Source of the DNA: SAR202 cluster bacterium
GTDB lineage: Bacteria > Chloroflexota > Dehalococcoidia > Lucifugimonadales > Lucifugimonadaceae
NCBI GenBank assembly: GCA_009392215.1
Contig: VFGZ01000028.1
Coordinates: forward strand, 1-38,178
Reading direction: 5' to 3'
Length of the DNA: 38,178 bases
Shown here: in pieces, positions 1 to 13,182 of the stretch
Numbering within the stretch: position 1 is the first letter of the stretch
How the letters are laid out: each line of letters starts with the position of its first letter
The notes under the pieces: generated by a model
Databases searched by the model: none
What the model was told of the DNA's origin: nothing
Seen by the model: only the letters and a program-made list of their open reading frames with translations
Translations under genes and position numbers: made by a program

Positions 1-658
1 TTTTCGCGGGGTCTGAACGCTCCATCCTGAGCTTAAATAACCAATAAGTGAAGGCGTCCTCTGAAGCGAGTGAATGTGCGCCTTTGCCCTGTGATCTTCC
101 AGGTATAGGTTGCAGACCCGTTTCAAGGCTAAAAACCTCCCAAAGTTGACCTCTGCTATTACCGTATAGTAGTTCATGGGCCCGCTCCAAAGACCCATCA
201 CTTAACTCCCGTCCACTGGCCACGCGAGTATGGGTTATTTCCTCTTCAACAGATACCAACAATGCTTGCTCAACGGTCACTCCATAGAAATACGAGAGAT
301 GCGCTCTGAACTTATCGACTCCAACGGCTCGCATAAATTCAGATTCTGCAAAACCACCAAAAAGCGCTGACTCACTAAGCCATTCCCACCAAATCTCGTT
401 CTCGATTTTAGAACTACACGCATCGAGCAGACGCTCGGCGAGAAGACGCCAGTCAAATGCTTCACCAGCAATCAGATAGTCCATAGTTCTACCCGCAATA
501 GTCTCTCTAGCAATAGGCCATTCAGCAATCGTTTCGAGAACTGACAACTTCCAATCTCTCGCATTTCCATCAATCTGAGATTGCAAGCTGGAGATAATTA
601 CGTCAGGTTTCCATGCCGTAACATCAGAAATAAACTCTTTATGTTCGTTCCTAACCAC
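1..658 (-). CDS. Unrecognised protein, C-terminus beyond the window edge
   Basis: An open frame runs from a GTG at 658-656 to the left edge, 219 codons without a stop, so the gene is partial. It reads as a normal soluble protein, rich in Trp, Glu and Leu (segments such as EIWWEWLSESALFGGF and LLYGNSRGQLWEVF), with no signal peptide or obvious membrane segment. I do not recognise a family. The start is set by an in-frame TGA just upstream; the GTG overlaps the polX stop by 8 bases, which suggests translational coupling as the last visible gene of the prs-secA-polX run. Internal ATG codons are possible later starts. That this is a real gene is fairly sure, because the frame is long and continuous with operon-like spacing. 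Its function is unknown. Confidence 0.6.
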   Translation of the reverse strand, partial: MVRNEHKEFISDVTAWKPDVIISSLQSQIDGNARDWKLSVLETIAEWPIARETIAGRTMDYLIAGEAFDWRLLAERLLDACSSKIENEIWWEWLSESALFGGFAESEFMRAVGVDKFRAHLSYFYGVTVEQALLVSVEEEITHTRVASGRELSDGSLERAHELLYGNSRGQLWEVFSLETGLQPIPGRSQGKGAHSLASEDAFTYWLFKLRMERSDPAK

Positions 659-2420
659 GGGATTTCATGAATTCATATCTATCTGACTTTGGCAAGTTTA
701 AAAAACGTCGTAACTCTTGAAATGGAAGGGTGTTCACTACTTGGTTTTTTTCGACCCAACCTCGAATAGCTGCTTGAACACCAAAGCGCAAATTACCAAA
801 TTGATTTGTCCGATGGGAGTCAGTGTTGATCGCAAATATTACACCGAGTTCAACTGCTCTACGGACATGATCCGCCTTCAAGTCAAGTCGATCAGGCGAA
901 CAATTAATTTCCATAACTGTACCAGTCAAAACCGCTGCTTCAAGTACGCTTTCAATGTGCATCATAACCGGCGCACGACGCTCAAGGAGCCTTGCTGTTA
1001 AATGGCATATGACGTCAACATGTGGACTTTGCATCGCACTGATCACACGCTTTGTCATGACAGCCTCATCCTGGTCCATGGCCGAATGAATCGAAGCTAT
1101 AACAATATCTAACTCCGACAAAACCTCGTCTGAATAATCCAATGAGCCGTCGGGCTTAATATCCATCTCAGTACCTGTAAGCAGTTCCATATCTGGCAAA
1201 TCAGAACTCATTTTTCGCACAATATGATTATGCGAATTCAGCCGATCAGGACTTAAACCATTAGCCACTGTAGCACTCGGCGAGTGATCAGTGATGGCCA
1301 AATATTCAAGGCCTCGACTTTGTGCTGAATCAACCATCTCATTCATCGGGAATCTACCGTCAGACCAGTCGGTATGGCAATGAAGATCGCCACGGATATC
1401 ATTAAGCGAGATGATAGACGGAAAATGATCTTCGACCGCCAGCTCGAGCTCTCCATTGTCTTCTCTCATCTCCGGAGGCACAAAAGCCAGACCAAGGTAA
1501 TCAAAAACATTCTTTTCATCCTCAACATCAATCGTTGAATCTGATCCAAGGTCAAATAAACCGTCTGAAGATATTGTTGCGTCTGCATCAGCAGCAATTT
1601 CCGCCAATTTATCTAAATGTGCATCGGAACCAGTGGCATAAACAAGTGCACCAGCAAATGATTCCGATTTCACGACTTTAATTGAAAATTCCAGACCACT
1701 CTTATCTAAAAATTTAGCACTTGAATCATCGTGTCTCAGCACGGTATATGTATTCGACAATGTGGTGAAAGCATCGACAACCGTACGCATCTCAACTTCA
1801 TCATCAACTGAACAGATTAAGTCGATGCTATTAACCAGCTCTACCCCTCTCCTGATCCCGCCAGCAATCATAATTCTTGTGATAGATGGACAACGTAATT
1901 CCAACTCGCTTATCACATCGGTGGCATAGTCATGCGCTCTGCCAATACCTATACGAGTCCCCTGCTCGATCCGCAGCTTCACGTGGCGCAAAATAGACAA
2001 TGAGTTTTTCTTAGTAATCCTAGGTAGCGATTGAAAAAGCCCGGATTCAATTGAATTAGCAAGATCCTGAAATGACCTGATGCCAAGGTCCCGTACCGCA
2101 CTAAACGCGGTTGCAGGCCCAATACCTGGAATTTGTACAAGATCGAGTACACCTTCGGGCGTCTCATTTAGGAGACTTTCTAGAAGTTCAAGCTGACCCG
2201 TTTGAACTAATTCCTGCACTTTGCCCACTATAGCTTCGCCGAAACCTGGAATTTCACGAAGACGGTCAGGTTCTTCAACAAGTTCCGAAACGGGATACGG
2301 GAGACTTCTAATGACATCTGAGGCCCTTGAGTACGCGCGAACCTTGAATACGTTTTCGCCCTTTGCTTGCATCAAAATCGCGACATCCGCAAAAGTTTTG
2401 GATATGGAAGTGTTGTTCAT
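651..2420 (-). CDS. polX: PolX family protein (X-family DNA polymerase fold plus PHP domain), polymerase site degenerate
   Basis: This is a 589-residue member of the bacterial PolX family, normally a repair polymerase with a C-terminal PHP 3'-5' exonuclease. Helix-hairpin-helix segments are IPGFGEAI (about 57-64) and IPGIGPATA (about 97-105). The nucleotidyltransferase core runs from about 150 to 310. The PHP domain starts near 343 with DLHCHTDWSDG, followed by AITDHS, GTEMD, SIHS, CHLTARLL and NTDSH, so its metal ligands look intact. In the core, the family DxD site reads NSIDL, with Ser198 for the first Asp, and the third catalytic Asp (usual VDxR) is Ser246 in EFSIKV. Polymerase activity is therefore doubtful, while the nuclease or phosphatase half may work. 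I start at the ATG at 2420, since MNNTSISKTF aligns with the family N-terminus; a TTG at 2462 would add 14 residues. It lies 63 bases after secA. Confidence 0.9.
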   Translation of the reverse strand: MNNTSISKTFADVAILMQAKGENVFKVRAYSRASDVIRSLPYPVSELVEEPDRLREIPGFGEAIVGKVQELVQTGQLELLESLLNETPEGVLDLVQIPGIGPATAFSAVRDLGIRSFQDLANSIESGLFQSLPRITKKNSLSILRHVKLRIEQGTRIGIGRAHDYATDVISELELRCPSITRIMIAGGIRRGVELVNSIDLICSVDDEVEMRTVVDAFTTLSNTYTVLRHDDSSAKFLDKSGLEFSIKVVKSESFAGALVYATGSDAHLDKLAEIAADADATISSDGLFDLGSDSTIDVEDEKNVFDYLGLAFVPPEMREDNGELELAVEDHFPSIISLNDIRGDLHCHTDWSDGRFPMNEMVDSAQSRGLEYLAITDHSPSATVANGLSPDRLNSHNHIVRKMSSDLPDMELLTGTEMDIKPDGSLDYSDEVLSELDIVIASIHSAMDQDEAVMTKRVISAMQSPHVDVICHLTARLLERRAPVMMHIESVLEAAVLTGTVMEINCSPDRLDLKADHVRRAVELGVIFAINTDSHRTNQFGNLRFGVQAAIRGWVEKNQVVNTLPFQELRRFLNLPKSDRYEFMKSRG

Positions 2421-2483
2421 GTCCAAAAGATTATCGCTGCAAACAACAACTTGGTCGACCAAGCACCGGTCAAATGCGGTGAA

Positions 2484-5222
2484 CTAACGAGCCTGCTTGG
2501 CCTGCTTACGTTGTAGCCGGTCAAGTTTTCGTCGTTCAGCTCTAGTCATTTTTCGGCCATCGGGAGTGTGCGTCGGCACTTGAGCTAACCCTGTACCACC
2601 TTGTTGCCCACCACCGTGGTTTGAATTCACATTAGCCATCACTGAACGTTTTCCAGCAGCCGCATTGGCTTTTTGGGTCGATAAATCGGCTTTTGTAGCA
2701 TTCATTTGTGGCCTTTCGGAGCGGGTTGGTTCTTGATTCATTGCCACTCGGAATATAGTTCTAGCTACCGTCGATTTAATCATGGCATCTAGTGAGGTAA
2801 ACATCTGAAATGCCTGGCGTTTGTAAGCAACAAGTGGATCGCGCTGACCCGCGGCTTCAAGTCCTATTCCTTGCCTCATATTATCCATAGATGTGAGATG
2901 CTCAACCCAATTTTCATCAATGGTGCGCAACATAATCGTCCGCTCTAGACGATGTAATAAATCCATCCCAAATTCTTCAGTACGTATGTCATAAATCTGA
3001 TCTACTAGTTGAAGAAACACTTCTTCAACTTCATCAGGCCGCATATCGTATATATCGTCTTTATCCGGAAAACCATGCAGTGAGGGGAATACTGTCATCA
3101 ATTCTCGATACAGACCATCAACGTCATAGTTTTCTGATCCACCGACAATTCGGTCGCCGACTATCGCACGTACTTCCTCGTCGAGATAACCACTGATTGT
3201 CGGTCGAAGGTCTTCCCCGTCAATGATCTTATCCCGAAGTTGATAAATCACATCCCTCTGGGTGTTCACCACATCATCGTAGTCAACCAAATATTTACGA
3301 ATTTCAAAGTTCTGTGCTTCGACCTTAGTTTGTGCGGTTTCAACAGATTTTGAAACCATCTTGTTCTCGATCGGGACATCAGCTTCCCAGCGGAACAGGT
3401 TCATCGCTCCTTTTATCCGTTCGCCGCCAAATCGTCTAACGATGTCGTCTTCGGTAGAAAGATAGAACTGAGTTTCACCCGGATCTCCTTGACGCCCGCA
3501 TCGACCACGCAATTGATTGTCAATGCGTCGCGATTCGTGCCGTTCGGTTCCGAGTACGAATAATCCACCTTTTTGGATAATCGCTTCATGGTCTATATCC
3601 CAGCCGGCTTCAGACGCAACTGTGACATCTGGATTGCCCCCAAGGATAATATCGGTCCCACGTCCAGCCATATTTGTCGCGACGGTGACCGACCCAGCTT
3701 TTCCAGCTTCGGCGACAACGCTCGCTTCTCGTTCATGCTGCTTAGCGTTCAGTACATTGTGAGGTATCTTCTTTTTTTTCAATAAGCCTGCAAGGAGTTC
3801 CGATTTATCGATACTGGTTGTTCCTACAAGAACGGGTCGACCATCACGGTGTAGTTCACTAATTCGTTGGGCGATCGCATCCCATTTAGCTTCTTCTGTC
3901 ATGAAGATATAATCCCCATGATCAATTCGCTGAGTGTCGCGATTTGTTGGTATTTCAACTACTTCAAGTTTGTAAATCTTATCCAACTCTTCTGCTTCGG
4001 TTGTAGCAGTACCTGTCATACCAGCGAGTTTTTCATACATGCGGAAATAATTTTGAAGTGTGATAGTGGCGTATGTGTTTGACTCCCGTTGAACGTTTAC
4101 TCCTTCCTTCGCCTCAAGAGCTTGATGGAGGCCATCAGAGAATCTTCTTCCAGTCATTAACCTCCCAGTAAACTCATCAACGATCACGACTTCATTACCC
4201 TGAACCACGTACTCACGATCCCGCAGATAAATGTGTTCTGCTCGGATAGCATTTTCCGTGAAATGCGACAACACATCGTTCTCAGGGCTGTAAAGGTTTT
4301 CTACTTTCAACTCACGCTCGATAGCCTCAATACCTTCTTCAGTAATTACTATGGTCTTACGCTTATCCTCGATTTCAAAGTGAACATCGGGACTGAGTCG
4401 CTTCGCTAATTGGGCAAATCGGCGATACTCATGGCTCTGTTCACGCGCAGGACCAGAAATTATGAGTGGCGTCCTAGCCTCATCAATGAGAATGTTATCG
4501 ACTTCATCAACGATGGCATAATTCCGTCCGCGTTGAACTCGCCGCCCAGCCTCTTCCACCATGTTATCCCGTAAATAATCGAACCCAAATTCATTGTTTG
4601 TACCGTAGGTGATATCACAAGCATACGCATCCTGTTTGGTACTGAGTTGAAAGTTATCCTCTGGCAATCTTACTGGCGGCGAAGCATCACCATCATCAGG
4701 TGCTTGAGCATCGAGTGGAGCATCAGGATTGAATACCCAGGAAGAATTATTCTGAAGGCACCCGATAGTAAGTCCCAAAAAATGATGAACGGCTCCCATC
4801 CATCCAGCATCTCGTTTGGCCAAATAATCGTTGACTGTAATGACATGAGCGCCCTCACCAGCAATGGCATTCAGGTAGGTAGGCAAAGTGGCAACAAGGG
4901 TTTTACCTTCACCAGTCCGCATCTCAGCGATCTTGCCCTGATGCAACACAATCCCACCAATCAACTGCACATCAAAATGGCGCATACCAATGGTTCTTTT
5001 TGATGCTTCTCTGACCGCAGCAAATGCCTCAGGAAGTAGATCATCCAAGCTCTCACCTTCCGTATATCGAGAACGCAAGGTGGTTGTGACGGCCTTCAAG
5101 TCACCATCACTAAGTTTTTCAAACCTCGGCTCCAATTCGTTGATTAGATCAACGAGCGGATGAATGGCTTTCAGAGCTTTTTCGTTGGAATCACCAACAA
5201 GTTTGTTGAATAAATTTAACAT
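2484..5222 (-). CDS. secA: Preprotein translocase ATPase SecA
   Basis: SecA is the motor that drives unfolded preproteins through SecYEG at the cytoplasmic membrane. The 912-residue protein has the family N-terminus, Walker A MRTGEGKT at 101-108, VITVNDYLAKRD, TYGTNNEFGFDYLRDNM at about 205-221, the DEAD-type box DEVDNILIDEARTPLI from 239, and the second helicase domain with NMAGRGTDIILGGNP and GRCGRQGDPGE. Two features differ from textbook SecA. Residues about 160-197 form an acidic, proline-rich insertion in the first nucleotide-binding domain. The C-terminus ends in a Gly/Gln-rich linker and a basic tail (RAERRKLDRLQRKQAKQAR) without the cysteine zinc motif used for SecB binding. The ATG at 5222 has a weak GAAG upstream. 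It lies between prs and polX. Confidence 0.98.
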   Translation of the reverse strand: MLNLFNKLVGDSNEKALKAIHPLVDLINELEPRFEKLSDGDLKAVTTTLRSRYTEGESLDDLLPEAFAAVREASKRTIGMRHFDVQLIGGIVLHQGKIAEMRTGEGKTLVATLPTYLNAIAGEGAHVITVNDYLAKRDAGWMGAVHHFLGLTIGCLQNNSSWVFNPDAPLDAQAPDDGDASPPVRLPEDNFQLSTKQDAYACDITYGTNNEFGFDYLRDNMVEEAGRRVQRGRNYAIVDEVDNILIDEARTPLIISGPAREQSHEYRRFAQLAKRLSPDVHFEIEDKRKTIVITEEGIEAIERELKVENLYSPENDVLSHFTENAIRAEHIYLRDREYVVQGNEVVIVDEFTGRLMTGRRFSDGLHQALEAKEGVNVQRESNTYATITLQNYFRMYEKLAGMTGTATTEAEELDKIYKLEVVEIPTNRDTQRIDHGDYIFMTEEAKWDAIAQRISELHRDGRPVLVGTTSIDKSELLAGLLKKKKIPHNVLNAKQHEREASVVAEAGKAGSVTVATNMAGRGTDIILGGNPDVTVASEAGWDIDHEAIIQKGGLFVLGTERHESRRIDNQLRGRCGRQGDPGETQFYLSTEDDIVRRFGGERIKGAMNLFRWEADVPIENKMVSKSVETAQTKVEAQNFEIRKYLVDYDDVVNTQRDVIYQLRDKIIDGEDLRPTISGYLDEEVRAIVGDRIVGGSENYDVDGLYRELMTVFPSLHGFPDKDDIYDMRPDEVEEVFLQLVDQIYDIRTEEFGMDLLHRLERTIMLRTIDENWVEHLTSMDNMRQGIGLEAAGQRDPLVAYKRQAFQMFTSLDAMIKSTVARTIFRVAMNQEPTRSERPQMNATKADLSTQKANAAAGKRSVMANVNSNHGGGQQGGTGLAQVPTHTPDGRKMTRAERRKLDRLQRKQAKQAR

Positions 5223-5281
5223 CTTTAGCTTCTGACTCGCAGTATTTAGTGCCGGGTTATGCCCAGATGAAAATCCACCAG

Positions 5282-6241
5282 CTATTGGGTAAACAATTCT
5301 CCAACCGAACGACCTTCATGAATCCGTTTTATCGCTTCCCCAAGAAGTGGAGCAACAGATAACACTTTCATCTTGAAGTTTACTTTGTCAGCAGACAAAG
5401 GAACTGTATCGGTTATTACAACTTCCTTAATATGAGGCACCTGAGCGAGTCTAGTTGAAGTGTCTCCGGATAACACGCCATGAGTGGCGACGGCATAAAT
5501 ATCAGTGCTGCCCCGTTTGGTAATAGCATCGGCGGCAGCAATCATTGTTCCACCCGTACCAATCTCATCATCAAACAGGATAACCGAACGGCCATCAACA
5601 TCCCCGATAACATTCAAGCTTTCAACCCGGTCGTCGTTACCCAGTCTCCTTTTCTCAACTATCGCCAGAGGAGCGTTAATCGAATCAGCAAAGTCACGCG
5701 CTTTCTTAGAAATTCCGATATCGGTCGCTACAACCACCGGATCATCCAAGTCCCTTTCAACAAAATATTCGACAAGTTTCGGCATAGCCGTGAGCTCATC
5801 AACCGGAACCTGGAAAAATCCTTGAACTTGACCAGCATGTAGGTCTACCATTACCACCCGCTCTGCACCGGCTGTTTCAAGTAAATCTGCGACTAGACGA
5901 CCTGTAATCGGCACCCGAGGCTGATCTTTTTTATCCGTTCGGGCATAACTATAAAATGGAACTACAGCCGTTATTCGTCCAGCTGAGGCACGCTTAGCAG
6001 CATCAATCATTATCAACAGTTCCATGATGTGATCATTAACTGGTTCTATGGTCGACTGCAGTATAAAAACATCTTTCTGACGAACATTTTCCAATATCCG
6101 AACAAACGTGTTGTCATTACTGAACTTGAAAACCTCTACCTGGCCCACACTCTGATGCAGATAATTACAGATATCCTGCACCAATTGAGGGTGGGAGTTC
6201 CCCGCAAAAATAACTGGGTTTCCATTAGTACCAAGCATCAT
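5282..6241 (-). CDS. prs: Ribose-phosphate pyrophosphokinase (PRPP synthetase)
   Basis: The enzyme transfers pyrophosphate from ATP to ribose 5-phosphate, giving PRPP for purine, pyrimidine, histidine, tryptophan and NAD synthesis in the cytoplasm. At 319 residues it has the normal length of class I enzymes. Visible signatures are the flexible-loop segment YSYARTDKKDQPRVPITG, the family signature VDLHAGQVQGFFQVPVDEL, and the PRPP-binding loop ILFDDEIGTGGT. The start is the first of two consecutive ATGs at 6241; it overlaps the TGA of the crotonase gene as ATGA, so translation is probably coupled. Homologues often begin close to this point, but the second ATG at 6238 is also possible. secA follows after about 60 bases on the same strand. 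Confidence 0.97.
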   Translation of the reverse strand: MMLGTNGNPVIFAGNSHPQLVQDICNYLHQSVGQVEVFKFSNDNTFVRILENVRQKDVFILQSTIEPVNDHIMELLIMIDAAKRASAGRITAVVPFYSYARTDKKDQPRVPITGRLVADLLETAGAERVVMVDLHAGQVQGFFQVPVDELTAMPKLVEYFVERDLDDPVVVATDIGISKKARDFADSINAPLAIVEKRRLGNDDRVESLNVIGDVDGRSVILFDDEIGTGGTMIAAADAITKRGSTDIYAVATHGVLSGDTSTRLAQVPHIKEVVITDTVPLSADKVNFKMKVLSVAPLLGEAIKRIHEGRSVGELFTQ

Positions 6242-7077
6242 ATCCCCTTGAACTTTGGTCGGCGTTTCTGCCTTAAGGCTTCCATACCTTCAACATGATC
6301 ATTAGAGGATAACGTTATTGACTCGGCTACGGCAGCCATTTCAAGGGAAGTTTTGAGATCCATTGACAACCCACGGCGCATCATGGTCTTAGCCAGCCGC
6401 GTTGCGATTGGTGGACCAGAAGCAATACTTCGAGCCATGTCTTGAGCTTTACCAATTAGCTCGTCGCCAAGCACAACATCGTTCAAAAAACCTACACTCT
6501 CAGCCTCAGTCACATCCATAAAACGTCCTGTATACATCAATTCGGCAGCCTTTGCATGACCGAAAAGCCTAGGGTAGAACCAAGTCCCCCCGTAACCCGG
6601 AAATAAACCGACATGGATATAAGCGGCCATGAACCGGGCATTATTCGAAGCAATACGAATATCGCAAGCGCAGGCAAGATCAAATCCCGCGCCTACAGCA
6701 TCCCCATTAATGGCTGCAATAACAGGTTTTTCCATTTCGTGAATACCCAAAATTACGTCTTGAGCAAGATGAAAGCCTCGTCTTAAACCCTCTGCCCCTG
6801 CAGGTCCAAGTTTATGTGGTCCATCACTTTTACCACCTGCCATCTCGTCGGTATCTGCTCCCGAACAGAAAGCACGACCGGCTGCGGTGATAATGAGGGC
6901 ACGAATTGAATCGTCTGATGCTATCGACTTCAATGACTCAACAAGCGATTTAAGGAGCTCACTTCCGAGGGAGTTCAGGCGGTCAGGGCGATTAAGTGTA
7001 AGAGTAGCGTAACCCTGTTCACGATTAACATCTTTAATCAAACAGTGATTATTCGTCGCCTTAGCATAATCTGACAT
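6238..7077 (-). CDS. Enoyl-CoA hydratase/isomerase (crotonase) family protein with altered catalytic residues
   Basis: This 279-residue crotonase-fold protein should act on an acyl-CoA thioester in the cytoplasm. The oxyanion-hole segments are present: AFCSGADTDEM near 70 and AAINGDAVGAGFDLACACDIRIAS near 121-144, then GLFPGYGGTWFYPRLFG. The two glutamates of classical enoyl-CoA hydratase (rat Glu144 and Glu164) align with Asp133 (GFDLA) and Tyr153 (AAYIHVG). Simple hydration of crotonyl-CoA is therefore unlikely; isomerase, hydrolase or lyase chemistry is possible. About ten extra residues near 80-95 (GGKSDGPHKLGPAG) widen the loop after the first oxyanion segment. It is the first gene of the minus-strand run with prs, secA and polX and overlaps prs by 4 bases. 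The link to housekeeping genes may be positional only. Confidence 0.9.
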   Translation of the reverse strand: MSDYAKATNNHCLIKDVNREQGYATLTLNRPDRLNSLGSELLKSLVESLKSIASDDSIRALIITAAGRAFCSGADTDEMAGGKSDGPHKLGPAGAEGLRRGFHLAQDVILGIHEMEKPVIAAINGDAVGAGFDLACACDIRIASNNARFMAAYIHVGLFPGYGGTWFYPRLFGHAKAAELMYTGRFMDVTEAESVGFLNDVVLGDELIGKAQDMARSIASGPPIATRLAKTMMRRGLSMDLKTSLEMAAVAESITLSSNDHVEGMEALRQKRRPKFKGI

Positions 7078-7214
7078 GAGAAAATTTTAGCACTCAAAAA
7101 GAATAACAAGCACTCGATAATCTGATCATCTAAGTATTTCCACAGCGCACCGATAGCCACCCTGTACTAAGGGATGTGAGCATGATGGGCTTGCATCCTC
7201 ATTAGCCAAACAGG

Positions 7215-7565
7215 TTATTCGGACAAACCATCGTAAACATCCTTCTTGAAGCCGAAGATGATTTGAGAACCGTCTAAAAGAATTGGCCTTCTTATCAAAC
7301 GTGGCTCTTTGAACATCAAATTTATTAACTCTTCATCGGATGCTTCCCCGCGAAGATTTCTATAGGGTTTCGAGCTGGGGCTTCGCCAAGCAAACATCTC
7401 ATCTACGGAGCAAAGTTCGCTGATATCTTTAATCTCAGCATGAGACAGTTGATCTTTAAAAAAATCGCGAAACACATATTGAACGTCTAAATCATCAAGG
7501 GCCCGACGGGCCTTCTGGCATGTGCTTCAACGAGACCAACAGTAAAACTTCAAATCATCAGACAA
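7215..7565 (-). CDS. ArsC/Spx-like thioredoxin-fold protein, probable selenoprotein (in-frame TGA at 7529-7527)
   Basis: The downstream part is a clear ArsC/Spx-like domain: FRDFFKDQLSHAEIKDI, FAWRSPSSKPYRNL, DEELINLMFKEPRLIRRPIL, and a closing GFKKDVYDGLSE. The N-terminal redox loop lies upstream in the same frame and reads LKFYCWSR-(TGA)-STCQKARRALDDL. The family has CSTC there, so TGA stands exactly at the catalytic cysteine and would give a U-x-x-C pair (Sec13, Cys16 if translation starts at TTG 7565). The full frame is then 116 residues, the usual family length. A hairpin follows the TGA (separate entry). Other genes here use TGA as stop, so the code is standard. The TTG start has a run of Gs 5 bases upstream; a second TTG at 7553 is possible. 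Members reduce arsenate or other thiol/oxyanion substrates; the substrate is unknown here. The alternative is a nonsense-mutated pseudogene. Confidence 0.72.
7497..7514 (-). promoter_or_regulatory. Candidate bacterial SECIS hairpin
   Basis: Read on the minus strand, GGCCC (7512-7508), loop GUC (7507-7505) and GGGCC (7504-7500) form a five-GC-pair stem. Two outer A-U pairs (7514-7513 with 7498-7497) are possible around a bulged C at 7499. The first loop base is G and lies 20 bases after the TGA. Bacterial SECIS elements, recognised by SelB, are known to sit just inside the coding region after UGA, with a G at the start of a small apical loop some 16-37 bases away. The fit is by eye; no folding was run. 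Confidence 0.55.
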
Positions 7566-7656
7566 GAAAAACCCCCGGCTATAACATCAGTATTTCCCAG
7601 ACCAACCCATAATTATGAAATATGAGACAAGCCCACCCTAGCAGCTATGAGGCACA

Positions 7657-9039
7657 TTGGGTAACCAAGAATTTAAAAATATAAGAAAATTTTTTAACAT
7701 TTGGTCACATCGGTCGCCATTCAAACGTACCGTAAGAGATTTTCATTTAGGCACTCGCAGTTTTACTAATTTAAGTTTGTACAGTTTTGGGCTTTCTGGA
7801 CTCTGGACGGCTGTCAGCTCAGTCATACTACCTTTCAAGATCCTCGAAGTATTGGAAATTGGCACAATCAACGTTTTTGGACAAGTTTTGGACAAAAATG
7901 GCGCTCTCGGCGTGATGTCATTAATCGGATTGCCAATAGGCGCGATGATTCAATTGATCTCCGGATCAATAAGTGACTACAGCAACAGGCTCGGGAAACG
8001 TTTGCCGTATTTGTTATTTGGTGGAATTGGGTTGGCTATATCCACCGTACTTCTTGGATTCGCTACAACTTTTGTCTCTCTTTTCCTTATGTATATGGCG
8101 ATACAAATATTCGGAAACGCCGGACAGGGGCCTGCCAATGCCTTAATCGTTGATCACGTACCCCCGCGTCGAAGAGGTGAGGCATCCGGAGTTCTAAATT
8201 TGTGGAGACTTATGGGAGCAGGAATTGTCACAGTGATCGTCTTGCAATTTATGGCCAATTATCAATTGGGAGCTGCTCCACAATGGCTGTGGTATTCAAT
8301 CACGTTCATTGTTGTGATTTTGATTGCAAGTACGTTGTGGACGACGTTGTCTCTACGACCAAGCGTAAAGTTCAAGGACACTAGACTAAGTCGAAATTTA
8401 GCACTCCAAAATACACCCTTAGATAACGATAAACCTAACCTGAGAATAAACCTGTCGAAAAGTTACCTCATTTTCTTAATCGCACTAGCGTTCTCCATAG
8501 CAGCACTATCATCTTTGCAAATTTATGCCCTCTTTTTCCTCCAGGATGTTGTCGGTCTGGCGAATCCAGCCGATGGAGCAGATTTACTAGTCATCGTCGT
8601 CATAGCAACAGCTGTGTTTACTGTTCTGCCGGCCGGTAAATTGGCCGATAAATTCGGAAGAGGAGCACTATTTTTCATCGCGGGACTGAGTGGTGTGGCT
8701 GGATCAACACTTCTACTATTTGTAAATTCAATCGCACCTGTACTTGGTATCGGGGCTCTTTTAGGATTCAGCGCTGGCTTGTTTTTAACACTAACTTGGG
8801 CCGTAGCTAACGACCTCGTAAGTCGAATGGCTGCAGGAAAAGAACTCGGTTACACAAGCATTGCAACGCTAGCTGGATCTGCCGCTGCAAGATTTGCAGG
8901 GATAGGGATCGACGAACTCAATAACCTGTCGGAAAATCTCGGATACAAGGCGATGTTAATAGCTGTGGCGATGGCGTTCATTATTGCAACGGTGCTACTT
9001 GCCGGGTTAGTCAAAAATTTACAGCACAATGACACCTGA
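7657..9039 (+). CDS. MFS transporter, GPH/SLC45-like
   Basis: This 460-residue integral membrane protein has about twelve hydrophobic segments. The motif after the second or third helix, GSISDYSNRLGKRLPYLLFGG, resembles the glycoside-pentoside-hexuronide and SLC45 sucrose-carrier groups (SDxxxxxxGRRRPF). A second-half copy appears as GKLADKFGRGALFF. A sugar or glycoside cation symporter is the most likely role, but specificity cannot be read. The TTG at 7657 has GAGG four bases upstream, and a 30-residue basic N-terminal tail precedes the first helix. It is divergent from the ArsC-like gene, leaving 91 bases for both promoters. The next gene, ispH, is 140 bases away and probably has its own promoter. 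Confidence 0.85.
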   Translation: MGNQEFKNIRKFFNIWSHRSPFKRTVRDFHLGTRSFTNLSLYSFGLSGLWTAVSSVILPFKILEVLEIGTINVFGQVLDKNGALGVMSLIGLPIGAMIQLISGSISDYSNRLGKRLPYLLFGGIGLAISTVLLGFATTFVSLFLMYMAIQIFGNAGQGPANALIVDHVPPRRRGEASGVLNLWRLMGAGIVTVIVLQFMANYQLGAAPQWLWYSITFIVVILIASTLWTTLSLRPSVKFKDTRLSRNLALQNTPLDNDKPNLRINLSKSYLIFLIALAFSIAALSSLQIYALFFLQDVVGLANPADGADLLVIVVIATAVFTVLPAGKLADKFGRGALFFIAGLSGVAGSTLLLFVNSIAPVLGIGALLGFSAGLFLTLTWAVANDLVSRMAAGKELGYTSIATLAGSAAARFAGIGIDELNNLSENLGYKAMLIAVAMAFIIATVLLAGLVKNLQHNDT

Positions 9040-9180
9040 TGCGACGAAGGTTATCGATACATCAAATGAATTGTTGAATAAATAAACTCAACTAACTAGC
9101 TATACTTAGAAAACAGTGACCCTCCAATCAGTAAAAAATAAATATCACCCAAAAATCAAGAGACAAATTGGATCCATTAA

Positions 9181-10155
9181 ATGACAGTAGATGTTTATAT
9201 AGCCAGCCCCCGCGGTTTTTGTGCCGGAGTCGACCTAGCTGTAGACATTGTTGATCTAGCTATCCAGCGATATGGGAAGCCCGTCTACGTCAAACATCAA
9301 ATCGTTCACAATCCCAAAGTGGTAGCAAATGTGGAATCCAAAGGTGCCATTACAGTCGAACATGTCTCTGAAGTTCCCGAAGGAGCAGTAGTAGTCTTCT
9401 CGGCACATGGGTCTCCACCCTCAGATTATGAAACAGCTGCTAATCGAAATCTCACAGTCTTGGACGCCACTTGTCCACTGGTCACAAGGGTTCATAACGA
9501 AGCTAAGAAGTACACGAGAGAAGGCAAGAAAATAGTCCTAGTGGGTCACGGTGGTCATCAGGAAGTGATCGGAACCACAGGTCAAGCCCAAATGGAATTG
9601 GTTGACGAAAGACAAGAATGGCAACTACCGAACTGGAGCAAGGAAACTGAAGTAGCCGTACTAACGCAGACCACACTTTCTGTCGACGATACTGCTGTTG
9701 CTATTGACAAAATACGACAAAAACACCCAAATGCAATTGTTCGAAATGACATTTGTTACGCTACCACAAACCGTCAATCAGCAGCCACGGAACTTGCAGA
9801 TCAGACCGAAGTAGTTCTTGTGATAGGCGCTCAAAACAGCTCTAATTGCAACCGCTTGAAGGATGTCGCCATAAATAAAGGAGTACCGGCATATTTAATA
9901 AATGGTCCGGAGGAATTGGACCCTTCTTGGATCGAAGGGGTAAAAAAAATCGGCATTACCTCAGGAGCTTCCACACCTGAAACCCAAGTCCAAGCAGTGA
10001 TCGAATCAATCACACCTGACAACATATTCCGAGTGGGGCCCGGTGAAGAAAAAACCATATTCGCGATACCCAGAAATTTGCGAGAAATGGTAGGACAGGG
10101 CTCACGACGTAATCCAGAAATCAAAGAAGATATTGCTACTGATGAAAATAACTAG
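9181..10155 (+). CDS. ispH: 4-hydroxy-3-methylbut-2-enyl diphosphate reductase (IspH/LytB)
   Basis: IspH carries out the last step of the MEP isoprenoid pathway, reducing HMBPP to isopentenyl and dimethylallyl diphosphate with a [4Fe-4S] cluster. The three cluster cysteines are visible: Cys14 in PRGFCAGV, Cys98 in LDATCPLV and Cys192 in NDICYATTNRQ. Substrate-binding segments HQIVHNPKVV, SAHGSPP, GHGGHQEVIGT and TSGASTPE are also present. The length of 324 residues is normal, with a short Glu/Lys-rich tail. The ATG at 9181 matches the family N-terminus. The last 14 bases overlap the start of the following enolase-superfamily gene, so the two are probably co-transcribed although no metabolic link is evident. 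Confidence 0.98.
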   Translation: MTVDVYIASPRGFCAGVDLAVDIVDLAIQRYGKPVYVKHQIVHNPKVVANVESKGAITVEHVSEVPEGAVVVFSAHGSPPSDYETAANRNLTVLDATCPLVTRVHNEAKKYTREGKKIVLVGHGGHQEVIGTTGQAQMELVDERQEWQLPNWSKETEVAVLTQTTLSVDDTAVAIDKIRQKHPNAIVRNDICYATTNRQSAATELADQTEVVLVIGAQNSSNCNRLKDVAINKGVPAYLINGPEELDPSWIEGVKKIGITSGASTPETQVQAVIESITPDNIFRVGPGEEKTIFAIPRNLREMVGQGSRRNPEIKEDIATDENN

Positions 10156-11263
10156 TATCGAATGTTTAGTTCTCGACGAAGAATATCCTTATGTAATCAT
10201 TCAAACCGATGAAGGTATCACTGGCTTTGGAGAGTGTTTTCGTCGCGCTCCATACATCTCAAAAACCACCATCGAAACTATTTTCGCACCACTGGTAATA
10301 GGTAAATCTCCGTTCAATTCAGAAAATATATGGGACGGCATGCTCAGAGCCGGCGGAGTAGCTGGCCCCCATGGAGCCCTCCTGACCGCAGCGGCTGGAG
10401 TCGATCTAGCTTTATGGGACCTCAAAGGCAAAGCTCTTGACACACCTGTATACAACCTGATCGGAGGGAAAAGTCGAGACAAGATCAAGGTTTATGCCAG
10501 TTCGCTTGTACGTGACCTCACTCCAACAGAAGAAGCCAATCGTGTGGCACGTTTTCGTGATGAAGGATATACCGCATACAAAATGCATTCAGCTGTACCA
10601 GGAAGAATTGACGACCCCCGAGATTTAACCGTTGAAACGGTGAAAGCAATCCGATCAGAAGTCGGATATGACATGGACGTCCTCGTAGACGTAAATAGTG
10701 CGTACTCGGTCCACCATGCCATAGAAATTGGGCGGCAACTGCAGGATCTTGGAGTTTTCCATTTCGAGGAACCCGTTCATACGAGAAACTACGAAGGTTT
10801 AGCTACGGTCGCCGATGCCCTAGATATGCCTGTCGCTTCAGGAGAAAATTCATTTACACGTTGGGAGCATCTAAGGCTTATACGAGAAGGGCGACCAGAT
10901 ATTGTCCAGCCTGACGTCGTGAAAGTCGGAGGTATCACCGAATTCCTCCGTATTGAAGCAGTGTTAAGTGCACACGGGGCAACAATGACTATCCATAACA
11001 CTCAACCATACGGCTCTACTGCTGCACACGCCCACCTATTGGCTCCGAGTAATAACTTTCCATATGCACAGGAGTACAACATAGAAACAGTCGGGATTCG
11101 AGATAATGACTCAATTCTGGACACGCCATACGAGGTGGAAGACGGATTTATAAGAATTCCTGATGGACCAGGACTAGGCCTAGACTACAACTTAGAAAAA
11201 ATGCGTAGCCGAAGCAGTGATACACCATCGGTTTTGCGATCTGCCTGGGGACATATGCAGTAA
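10142..11263 (+). CDS. Enolase-superfamily enzyme (mandelate racemase/muconate lactonizing type)
   Basis: This 373-residue protein has the superfamily N-terminal capping domain and a (beta/alpha)7-beta barrel. Barrel residues visible are Lys147 in YTAYKMH, metal ligands Asp183 (LVDVNSAY), Glu209 (FHFEEPV) and Glu235 (ASGEN), then QPDVVKVGG and His285 in TIHNTQPYG, and QEYNIE near the end. Such enzymes abstract a proton alpha to a carboxylate; acid-sugar dehydratase is the commonest role, but racemase or cycloisomerase cannot be excluded. I chose the ATG at 10142 because MKITSIECLV matches the family start; a TTG at 10133 would add three residues. It starts inside the ispH stop region. The C-terminal gene (MFS, opposite strand) is only 14 bases away. 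Confidence 0.92.
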   Translation: MKITSIECLVLDEEYPYVIIQTDEGITGFGECFRRAPYISKTTIETIFAPLVIGKSPFNSENIWDGMLRAGGVAGPHGALLTAAAGVDLALWDLKGKALDTPVYNLIGGKSRDKIKVYASSLVRDLTPTEEANRVARFRDEGYTAYKMHSAVPGRIDDPRDLTVETVKAIRSEVGYDMDVLVDVNSAYSVHHAIEIGRQLQDLGVFHFEEPVHTRNYEGLATVADALDMPVASGENSFTRWEHLRLIREGRPDIVQPDVVKVGGITEFLRIEAVLSAHGATMTIHNTQPYGSTAAHAHLLAPSNNFPYAQEYNIETVGIRDNDSILDTPYEVEDGFIRIPDGPGLGLDYNLEKMRSRSSDTPSVLRSAWGHMQ

Positions 11264-11277
11264 ATATATAAAATACC

Positions 11278-12564
11278 CTAATTCCGCTCGTCGATCGAAA
11301 AACCTGTAATCAATTCAGGCCACCTAAATAGCGATAGCGCTATTGCAAGCAAACCAACTACAGCGTACCCCGTGATAGTCACTGCTACACCATACTGTTC
11401 GATTAGCCAACCACCGATCACCATTCCCATGGGTAGAGCGTAAACAGCGAGCATCCTCACTCCCATCACTCGACCTCTCATCTCAAACTTAGCAAAAGTC
11501 AAAAGCACGACAGACATCGTAATCATGCAAAAACTAACTGAAACGCCCATCAGGGCTAGTGCTGGCAAGCCCCACGTATTCGACTGAGTTTGTGCGAAAA
11601 AAATTAACAGTACGTGCCAGACGATCATAGCCAGCATCATAAAACGTTCAGGATGAGAAAACTTTCCTACTGCAGCCATCAACAATGACCCAAATAACGC
11701 TCCAGCCGCAAATGTCGCAACCATCACGGCGAGCCCATTTTCATCATGGCCGTACACATCCCTAGCCACTACTGGCAAAAGACCGTTAGTGAATGGAAAC
11801 GCTGTGGCATTAACTAAAAAAGCCAGGAACATAATTGGCTGAAGAGCCGACGAATTCATAATGTATTTCATGCCATGTTTCATGTCAGTTAATGGATTCA
11901 TGCGTTTATTTATCTGCAAAGTTGATGGAACTGATCTGATCCCTAAACCAAAAAAAACGCTGAACGCGTAAAACAAACTTACAGCAGTGAGGGCCCATCC
12001 AAGTCCTAAACGCGACAATAAAGTTGCACCTAAAAGAGCTCCTACAATTCGTGCGGAGTCCTGCGTGGTTCGAGCAAAACCAGATGCGTTCATCAACAAG
12101 CGCCGCGGCACCGTGTCCGCAATTAAAGATTGTCGCAGTACATTATCCGCGGGCCTTAATAACCCACTGAAACCTGCAACAATAAATACGTGCCAGGGTT
12201 CAATCAATCCAGTAATACCAAGAACCAGTAATACCGCCGACGATAAACCTGTGCCAATACGAAGCGAAATCAACATGCGTTTTCTATTCATTCGATCGGC
12301 GATTACACCGATTAAAGGCGCGGTAATGGTTCCTGAAAACCGCAGGGCACCCAGTAAACCGACCAAGAACGGCGAATCCGTAGCTACCAAGATGTACCAT
12401 CCCAGGATCAGAGTTTCCATTTCTGACCCCCATGTATTCATAGCGTCAGCAGACCACTGGAATCTGAAGCTTCGGATACCAAATGCAGATAAAACGGATC
12501 TAAAACCAGATGCATTATTATCTGGAGAGTTACCGCTGGACTTGCCAGATCTGTCAGCTACCAT
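11278..12564 (-). CDS. MFS transporter, EntS-like (MFS_3) exporter
   Basis: This 428-residue protein has about twelve hydrophobic helices. The N-terminal half has MFS motif A as GVIADRMNRKRMLISLR and the group-typical RPADNVLRQSLIADTVPRR loop, which is characteristic of the enterobactin-exporter-like MFS_3 subfamily. This points to efflux of a small molecule rather than nutrient uptake, but the substrate is unknown. The first 20 residues are polar, rich in Ser, Gly and Asn, and cytoplasmic. The ATG at 12564 lies only 6 bases from the GTG of the divergent DUF192 gene, so the promoters must overlap coding sequence or one start lies further in. The gene is convergent with the enolase-superfamily gene, with 14 bases between stops and no visible terminator. 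Confidence 0.88.
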   Translation of the reverse strand: MVADRSGKSSGNSPDNNASGFRSVLSAFGIRSFRFQWSADAMNTWGSEMETLILGWYILVATDSPFLVGLLGALRFSGTITAPLIGVIADRMNRKRMLISLRIGTGLSSAVLLVLGITGLIEPWHVFIVAGFSGLLRPADNVLRQSLIADTVPRRLLMNASGFARTTQDSARIVGALLGATLLSRLGLGWALTAVSLFYAFSVFFGLGIRSVPSTLQINKRMNPLTDMKHGMKYIMNSSALQPIMFLAFLVNATAFPFTNGLLPVVARDVYGHDENGLAVMVATFAAGALFGSLLMAAVGKFSHPERFMMLAMIVWHVLLIFFAQTQSNTWGLPALALMGVSVSFCMITMSVVLLTFAKFEMRGRVMGVRMLAVYALPMGMVIGGWLIEQYGVAVTITGYAVVGLLAIALSLFRWPELITGFSIDERN

Positions 12565-12570
12565 CGATTT

Positions 12571-13182
12571 GTGATTATTTCTCCGAAAAAGATGACGGTC
12601 GCAACATTTATATTCATAGCACTATCTGCGCTCACCGTTTTAGCAGCTTGCCAATCAGTCGAAGATAGATACCCTTACCCACAGTTCCTAACTTCTAGAG
12701 ATTGCCAAGGTTTACCACATGGCGTTTTACCAATAACCGACCTGTTTATTTCAAAATCCAACGGCGAGGGAGATATTACTTTACAGGTTGAAGTAGCAGA
12801 TGAGCCTTCCGAAAGAAAACAAGGCCTTATGTGCCGAGAATCAATCCCACCAGGGACCGGGATGCTCTTCACATATGACTCCGACAATTCAAGTGGCTTC
12901 TGGATGTACAACACATACACTGCAATCGATATTCTCTTCATCGACTCTTACGGTCAGGTAGCCGATATGATCAAGATGTCACCTTGCCCAAGACAAACGT
13001 TATATCCCTTGGAGGGAGATGAAGAGTGGAAAATAAGGTGCATGTCAGAAGCCCAAGCATATGTTCCCGCAAAATCTTGGCGTTCCACGTTAGAACTCCC
13101 GGCTGGCTGGCTTTCTGAAAAATATCTGCATGATCCAGTGAAATCAATATCCAAAATCGATTGGACAACTCCAACCAAATAG
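12571..13182 (+). CDS. DUF192 lipoprotein
   Basis: This 203-residue protein begins with a lipoprotein signal: Lys-Lys n-region, hydrophobic FIFIALSALTVLAAC with lipobox cysteine at about residue 26, so it should be exported and lipid-anchored. The mature part is DUF192: VEVADEPSERKQGLMCRE, GMLFTYDSDNSSGFWMYNT, AIDILFIDSYGQVADMIKMSPCP, and a closing ELPAGWLSEKYL. The function of the family is not established. A GTG at 12571 keeps the basic n-region before the helix; an ATG at 12592 would remove it, so I prefer GTG. It is divergent from the EntS-like MFS gene. The phosphoglycerate-mutase-like gene follows after 36 bases on the same strand, so co-transcription is possible. Confidence 0.88.
   Translation: MIISPKKMTVATFIFIALSALTVLAACQSVEDRYPYPQFLTSRDCQGLPHGVLPITDLFISKSNGEGDITLQVEVADEPSERKQGLMCRESIPPGTGMLFTYDSDNSSGFWMYNTYTAIDILFIDSYGQVADMIKMSPCPRQTLYPLEGDEEWKIRCMSEAQAYVPAKSWRSTLELPAGWLSEKYLHDPVKSISKIDWTTPTK

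Follow-up and report, generated by a model that had tools for sequence, protein, structure and literature searches.

The window, a 38,178-nucleotide stretch of a SAR202 cluster bacterium contig, very probably encodes a selenoprotein of the ArsC/Spx-like family with selenocysteine at the reactive site. On the minus strand, the gene (7215 to 7565) starts with TTG at 7565-7563 and is translated as LSDDLKFYCWSR-TGA-STCQKARRALDDL... up to a TAA stop, which gives 116 residues with the UGA as residue 13. This single in-frame UGA (7529-7527) stands where the CxxC motif of the family has its first cysteine, so that the window protein has UxxC instead; the partner of the pair, Cys16, is encoded at 7518-7520. 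In the alignment to relatives with cysteine, the UGA falls on their active-site cysteine, and the match to the Pfam ArsC model (PF03960, 53.6 bits versus a cut-off of 24) runs across the UGA, from residue 8 to residue 112 (E = 2.8e-14). The sequence-only reading of this DNA had placed the TGA exactly at the reactive cysteine of a protein of 116 residues, and both points hold. It had also foreseen that a standard gene caller would report just the C-terminal part. Indeed, the mechanical list of open reading frames for the window has only 7475-7215, with a GTG start and 86 amino acids: a plain ORF call reduces the gene to a stub. The full-length gene has a weak ribosome site before its TTG, and many relatives in the genus have GGAG followed by GTG or ATG. 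A scan of the window for further frames with a recoded UGA and a C/U motif yielded 11 rows, one of which (7529) is the ArsC/Spx-like gene.

Since the frame is interrupted and the assembly is a draft of 69 contigs, we considered whether the gene might simply be broken, with the UGA as a stop, a sequencing error, or the mark of a pseudogene. This is extremely improbable. Among genus genomes in which the 5' end is intact, counting the window's own, the codon is TGA in 18 of 18 and is the sole in-frame stop in the stretch read, which rules out chance. On both sides of the UGA, the genus genomes differ roughly 3 to 5 times as much at third codon positions as at positions 1 and 2 (0.39 versus 0.08 before it and 0.55 versus 0.17 after it). 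The same UGA is found in the isolate Candidatus Lucifugimonas marina JH1073 (CP046147.1), which passages of PMC10444878 describe as a SAR202 isolate sequenced with PacBio. We infer that JH1073 belongs to the window's genus and that this genus lies within the SAR202 Chloroflexota. More broadly, of 104 distinct proteins in the family, 94 have the UGA and the other 10 have cysteine, so the UGAs of the relatives would need to be errors too. Random stops or frameshifts in relatives, which the earlier reading had named as evidence against it, were not what we saw: the relatives, including the isolate, have an intact frame with the UGA.

The 104 proteins came from a scan of 140 loci, 135 of which were merged into 104 distinct proteins for these counts and into 103 distinct stretches (93 with UGA and 10 with Cys) for the hairpin test described below. 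The five loci left out were L042 and L082, which start at a contig edge; L137, which has no aligned N terminus; and L138 and L145, in which the motif codon was not parsed although U was printed at the motif. For L046 and L084, the motif register was set by hand, with a shift of four codons.

Another possibility is that the UGA is decoded as some other residue (tryptophan, cysteine, or through suppression) rather than as selenocysteine. We found no support for this and regard it as very improbable. First, TGA terminates 12 of the 31 main open reading frames of the window, which are a selection from the mechanical list, so TGA is a normal stop that has not been reassigned, as the sequence-only reading had argued. 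Second, in the loci read, the residue that replaces selenocysteine is cysteine. Third, the window's own genome (1.81 Mb in 69 contigs, 84.8% complete) contains the complete selenocysteine machinery, whose presence the same reading had named as support: a tRNA-Sec (69.4 bits, with anticodon TCA according to ARAGORN) and profile matches for SelA (513.1 bits), SelB (329.5 bits), and SelD (373.6 bits). Overall, we rejected a pseudogene, a sequencing error, and code reassignment based on the conserved UGA, the isolate genome, and the use of TGA as a normal stop. A side observation concerns the SelD of this genome (L023, G000:C22:5859-6788, minus strand): its active-site motif reads CAGUAGK, with one UGA in frame, which makes this SelD a probable second selenoprotein there.

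We then compared 100 genomes, including the window's own. The gene is present in 62 of them: 55 have one TGA (the position of the TGA was read for the fetched loci, and for other genomes only the number of TGAs), 6 have Cys, and in 1 the gene is cut by a contig end; the other 38 lack it. G072, which has a two-piece match in different frames, was counted among the TGA genomes. Another genome, G067, has two copies of the gene with one TGA each. The gene for SelA was above the cut-off in 79 of the 100 genomes, and it was found in 52 of the 55 genomes with the UGA gene versus 27 of the 45 others (Fisher P = 3.5e-5, ignoring relatedness). All 55 carry at least one of selA, tRNA-Sec, and selB: of the three without selA, G059 and G084 have tRNA-Sec, and G026 has selB. 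Neither selA nor tRNA-Sec was found in a search of G026, whose assembly is 86% complete.

The six genomes with the Cys form are five members of genus g11 and G090. The g11 genomes keep selA (5/5), and tRNA-Sec is present in both of those tested, so the Cys form occurs there alongside a retained selenocysteine machinery. In G090, which is 97% complete, there was no selA, tRNA-Sec, or SelB above the cut-off. We also searched 10 genomes (0.7-1.5 Mb, 69-95% complete) from g5 and g6, two genera of the same family, and found neither selA nor the ArsC/Spx-like gene, as if the selenocysteine trait had been lost along with genome reduction.

The sequences show a SECIS-type hairpin after the UGA, whose pairing is conserved among genes with the UGA but not among Cys homologues. 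In the window it spans 7497-7515 on the minus strand, corresponding to +12 to +30 nt downstream of the UGA, with the apical loop GUC at 7507-7505. According to passages of PMC13188914, the model for bacterial SECIS elements allows a loop of 3-9 nt with a G in the first two positions, an upper stem of 4-16 bp, a spacing of 16-37 nt, and a minimum free energy of at most -7.5 kcal/mol. The window hairpin lies within these bounds, with a 3-nt loop (G first), an upper stem of 5 bp, and 19 nt from the UGA to the loop, and the 48 nt after the UGA fold with -9.4 kcal/mol.

In 19 sequences from the genus, 132 of the 133 designated pairs form, as compared to a mean of 88.8 (standard deviation 4.0) under a null model of synonymous recoding; Z values from this pair test overstate the case because the pair-specific structures were chosen post hoc from the folds and the sequences are related. 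For 65 other UGA genes, in which the loop is four nucleotides further on, 465 of 520 pairs form (null 280.2, standard deviation 8.2), with exchanges among G-C, A-U, C-G, and U-A at several of the pairs. At least 7 of the 8 pairs form in 54 of these genes, and 6 or fewer form in the other 11. As a control, sliding the partners gave 166-338 of 520 pairs, versus 465 in register. A third form of the hairpin, in the nine genes of family f74, has all 54 of 54 pairs (null 37.3, standard deviation 2.5). In contrast, when two of these structures were imposed on the 10 Cys genes, 30 of 80 pairs (null 31.3) and 33 of 70 pairs (null 34.7) formed, which is the null level. This difference in pairing between UGA and Cys genes also argues against decoding of the UGA as another residue.

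For the window by itself, the specific pairs exceed the synonymous null (P = 0.025), but the folding energy of the 48 nt is not below that null (z = 0.33). In a first fold of 69 nt, z was -1.38, and 23 of 200 shuffles were equally good. Across genes, the mean z for folding energy is -1.29 for the 93 UGA genes and -0.48 for the 10 Cys genes, one of which (L102) reaches -3.44. The contrast between UGA and Cys forms is thus weaker by plain folding energy, which is a poor test for a SECIS element in the window. At least three registers of the hairpin are seen, with the apical loop at +20 to +22, +24 to +26, or +19 to +23 (f74), in a comparison of L028-L046 with L047-L175; in the window's genus, the loop is four nucleotides nearer to the UGA than in most. 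SelB and the selenocysteine-charged tRNA would use this hairpin to insert selenocysteine at residue 13.

The Sec and Cys forms occupy one locus as orthologues. In the window, the gene is followed on the minus strand by an enoyl-CoA hydratase family gene (6238-7077) and a ribose-phosphate pyrophosphokinase (PRPP synthetase) gene (5282-6241), and a divergent MFS transporter gene lies on the plus strand (7657-9039); we use these neighbors as syntenic context only. We compared 42 named loci (L066-L107): downstream, 38 have a homologue of PRPP synthetase, and upstream, 35 have an MFS homologue in divergent orientation. LytB adjoins the gene instead in five of the seven loci without MFS (L078, L095, L100, L103, and L106); as for the remaining two, L082 begins within the gene, and in L107 all of these neighbors are missing. 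Four loci lack PRPP synthetase, and in three of them the sequence is short on that side. Both neighbors are present in all 7 of the 7 named Cys loci, which is why we consider the two forms orthologous at one place. This single syntenic locus provides a natural series, in which the Sec forms keep the SECIS hairpin and the Cys forms do not. A tree of the family (104 rows, with 114 columns kept) implies at least four changes between Sec and Cys, of which three are forced by starred branches, and 24 forks are open. Our reading is that the change in g11 went from Sec to Cys, judging from its nested place in a tree with a midpoint root only.

The family extends beyond these genomes. When the family profile was run against 399 genomes from the phylum, 59 of them had matches, of which some were weak and partial. 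We also searched named contigs with conserved peptides of the ArsC/Spx-like family, and among the best 80 of 93 matches, UGA forms were found in Syntrophaceae/Smithellaceae and in metagenome-assembled genomes (MAGs) labeled Bacillota. A few loci have UxxS in place of UxxC: L053 and L089, which represent one f1 genome (UQTS), and L142 and L143, from two MAGs labeled Bacillota. One contig labeled as uncultured Alphaproteobacteria (L066) carries the locus with 89-95% protein identity over the neighbors and is probably from a mislabeled or contaminated bin.

The identification as ArsC/Spx-like, which was made from the sequence alone, is supported and can be refined: judging by profile scores, the Spx/MgsR-like model fits the window protein better than the one for glutaredoxin-dependent arsenate reductase does. 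It narrowly exceeds the cut-off of TIGR01617, for Spx/MgsR family RNA polymerase-binding regulatory proteins (77.2 versus 75.05), and it scores 36.9 bits against TIGR00014, for glutaredoxin-dependent arsenate reductase, whose cut-off is 106.05. An AlphaFold2 model of the protein (pLDDT 86.8, pTM 0.74) has Spx, ArsC-like proteins, and YffB as its first ten matches in the PDB, with TM scores of 0.66-0.86 by query length.

We lean toward a general thiol/selenol redox role for a thioredoxin-fold ArsC/Spx-like protein with UxxC. Sec13 and Cys16 would form a selenenylsulfide/selenol pair, which may reduce, or sense, an oxidized partner. This role is favored because serine replaces a key glycine of Spx (see below), the arsenite exporter gene acr3 does not track with the UGA gene, and no ArsB was above the cut-off. 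Arsenate reduction and Spx-type control of transcription are less likely special cases of it, and both are compatible with the selenoprotein claim.

First, the protein might be a selenium-dependent arsenate reductase, with Sec13 as the residue that attacks arsenate, resolution of the intermediate by Cys16 or by a thiol partner, and export of the arsenite. The fold and sequence are those of the ArsC family, the window's own genome encodes an Acr3 arsenite exporter (402.4 bits), and the gene has only itself as a match within that genome (E ≤ 0.001). However, besides the low score against TIGR00014, acr3 is about as frequent in genomes with the UGA gene (16/55) as in the others (11/45; P = 0.66), and ArsB was above the cut-off in none of the 100 genomes, with 11 weaker matches. 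Also, none of the nine neighbors scanned (651-13182) is an ars gene, and the acr3 of the window's own genome is on another contig. We therefore view a role as an arsenate reductase as unlikely; arsenate detoxification is unsupported by co-occurrence with acr3 or arsB in the 100 genomes.

Second, the protein might be a selenium-based regulator of the Spx type, whose oxidized Sec-Cys pair would promote binding to the C-terminal domain of the RNA polymerase alpha subunit (alphaCTD) and turn on thiol-stress genes. Besides the TIGR01617 score, Spx in complex with alphaCTD is the best match by fold, and arginines are found at the positions aligned to R60 and R92 of Spx. Yet the position aligned to R47, which we take to have a role in Spx, has glutamate; the protein stays far below the cut-offs of the Spx models (for NF002459, 51.6 versus 123); and of 10 more distant relatives that we scanned, 2 exceed the cut-off of TIGR01617. 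Moreover, Ser53 of the window protein aligns with G52 of Spx, which contacts alphaCTD and is absolutely required for activation of trxB (passages of PMC2801614). We consider this mechanism rather improbable, and more improbable still the fuller proposal that SAR202 has an Spx-type regulator that senses oxidation with Sec-Cys instead of Cys-Cys and controls RNA polymerase. If it were true, the stress response in this marine lineage would be adjusted by the availability of selenium.

ArsC-like selenoproteins with UxxC are already known from ocean metagenomes; what the sequences now pin down is a predicted host and recoding signal. The sequence-only reading had attributed such proteins to marine metagenomes, and it was right: passages of the 2008 Global Ocean Sampling selenoproteome study (PMC2398784) list a UxxC set, Arsenate reductase 2 (cd03032), with 42 sequences in the table. 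We liken it to the window protein by domain type and motif only, as hosts are unnamed in those passages, and neither "chloroflex" nor "SAR202" occurs in the main text. Passages of a 2006 study count three selenoproteins in Chloroflexi (PMC1794560), and the word selenium is absent from passages of the JH1073 paper (PMC10444878). Our literature search found no description of an ArsC/Spx-like selenoprotein in SAR202, which does not prove absence, as subscription papers were outside its scope. The SAR202 Chloroflexota, including a cultured species, can be named as the host clade for a kind of selenoprotein known from metagenome reads, and the isolate makes the prediction accessible to a test by proteomics.

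Among known systems, passages of two reviews describe an arsenate reductase-like selenoprotein with UxxC (NF041106 in PMC13188914 and COG1393 in PMC9312934), which resembles the window protein as an ArsC family selenoprotein. The window protein, however, scores 32.1 against NF041106, NCBI's model for ArsC family (seleno)proteins, whose cut-off is 85, and none of the 10 more distant relatives reach the cut-off (best 51.1). The arsenate reductase from the Sargasso Sea (passages of PMC1088965) is also an ArsC-like selenoprotein with selenocysteine at the first motif position, but it has UxxS where the window protein has UxxC. Finally, Spx of Bacillus subtilis (PDB 1z3e and 3gfk) shares the fold (TM 0.82 for 1z3e) and has its redox pair in the same place, but it has cysteine where the window protein has selenocysteine, and its G52 is not conserved in the window protein.
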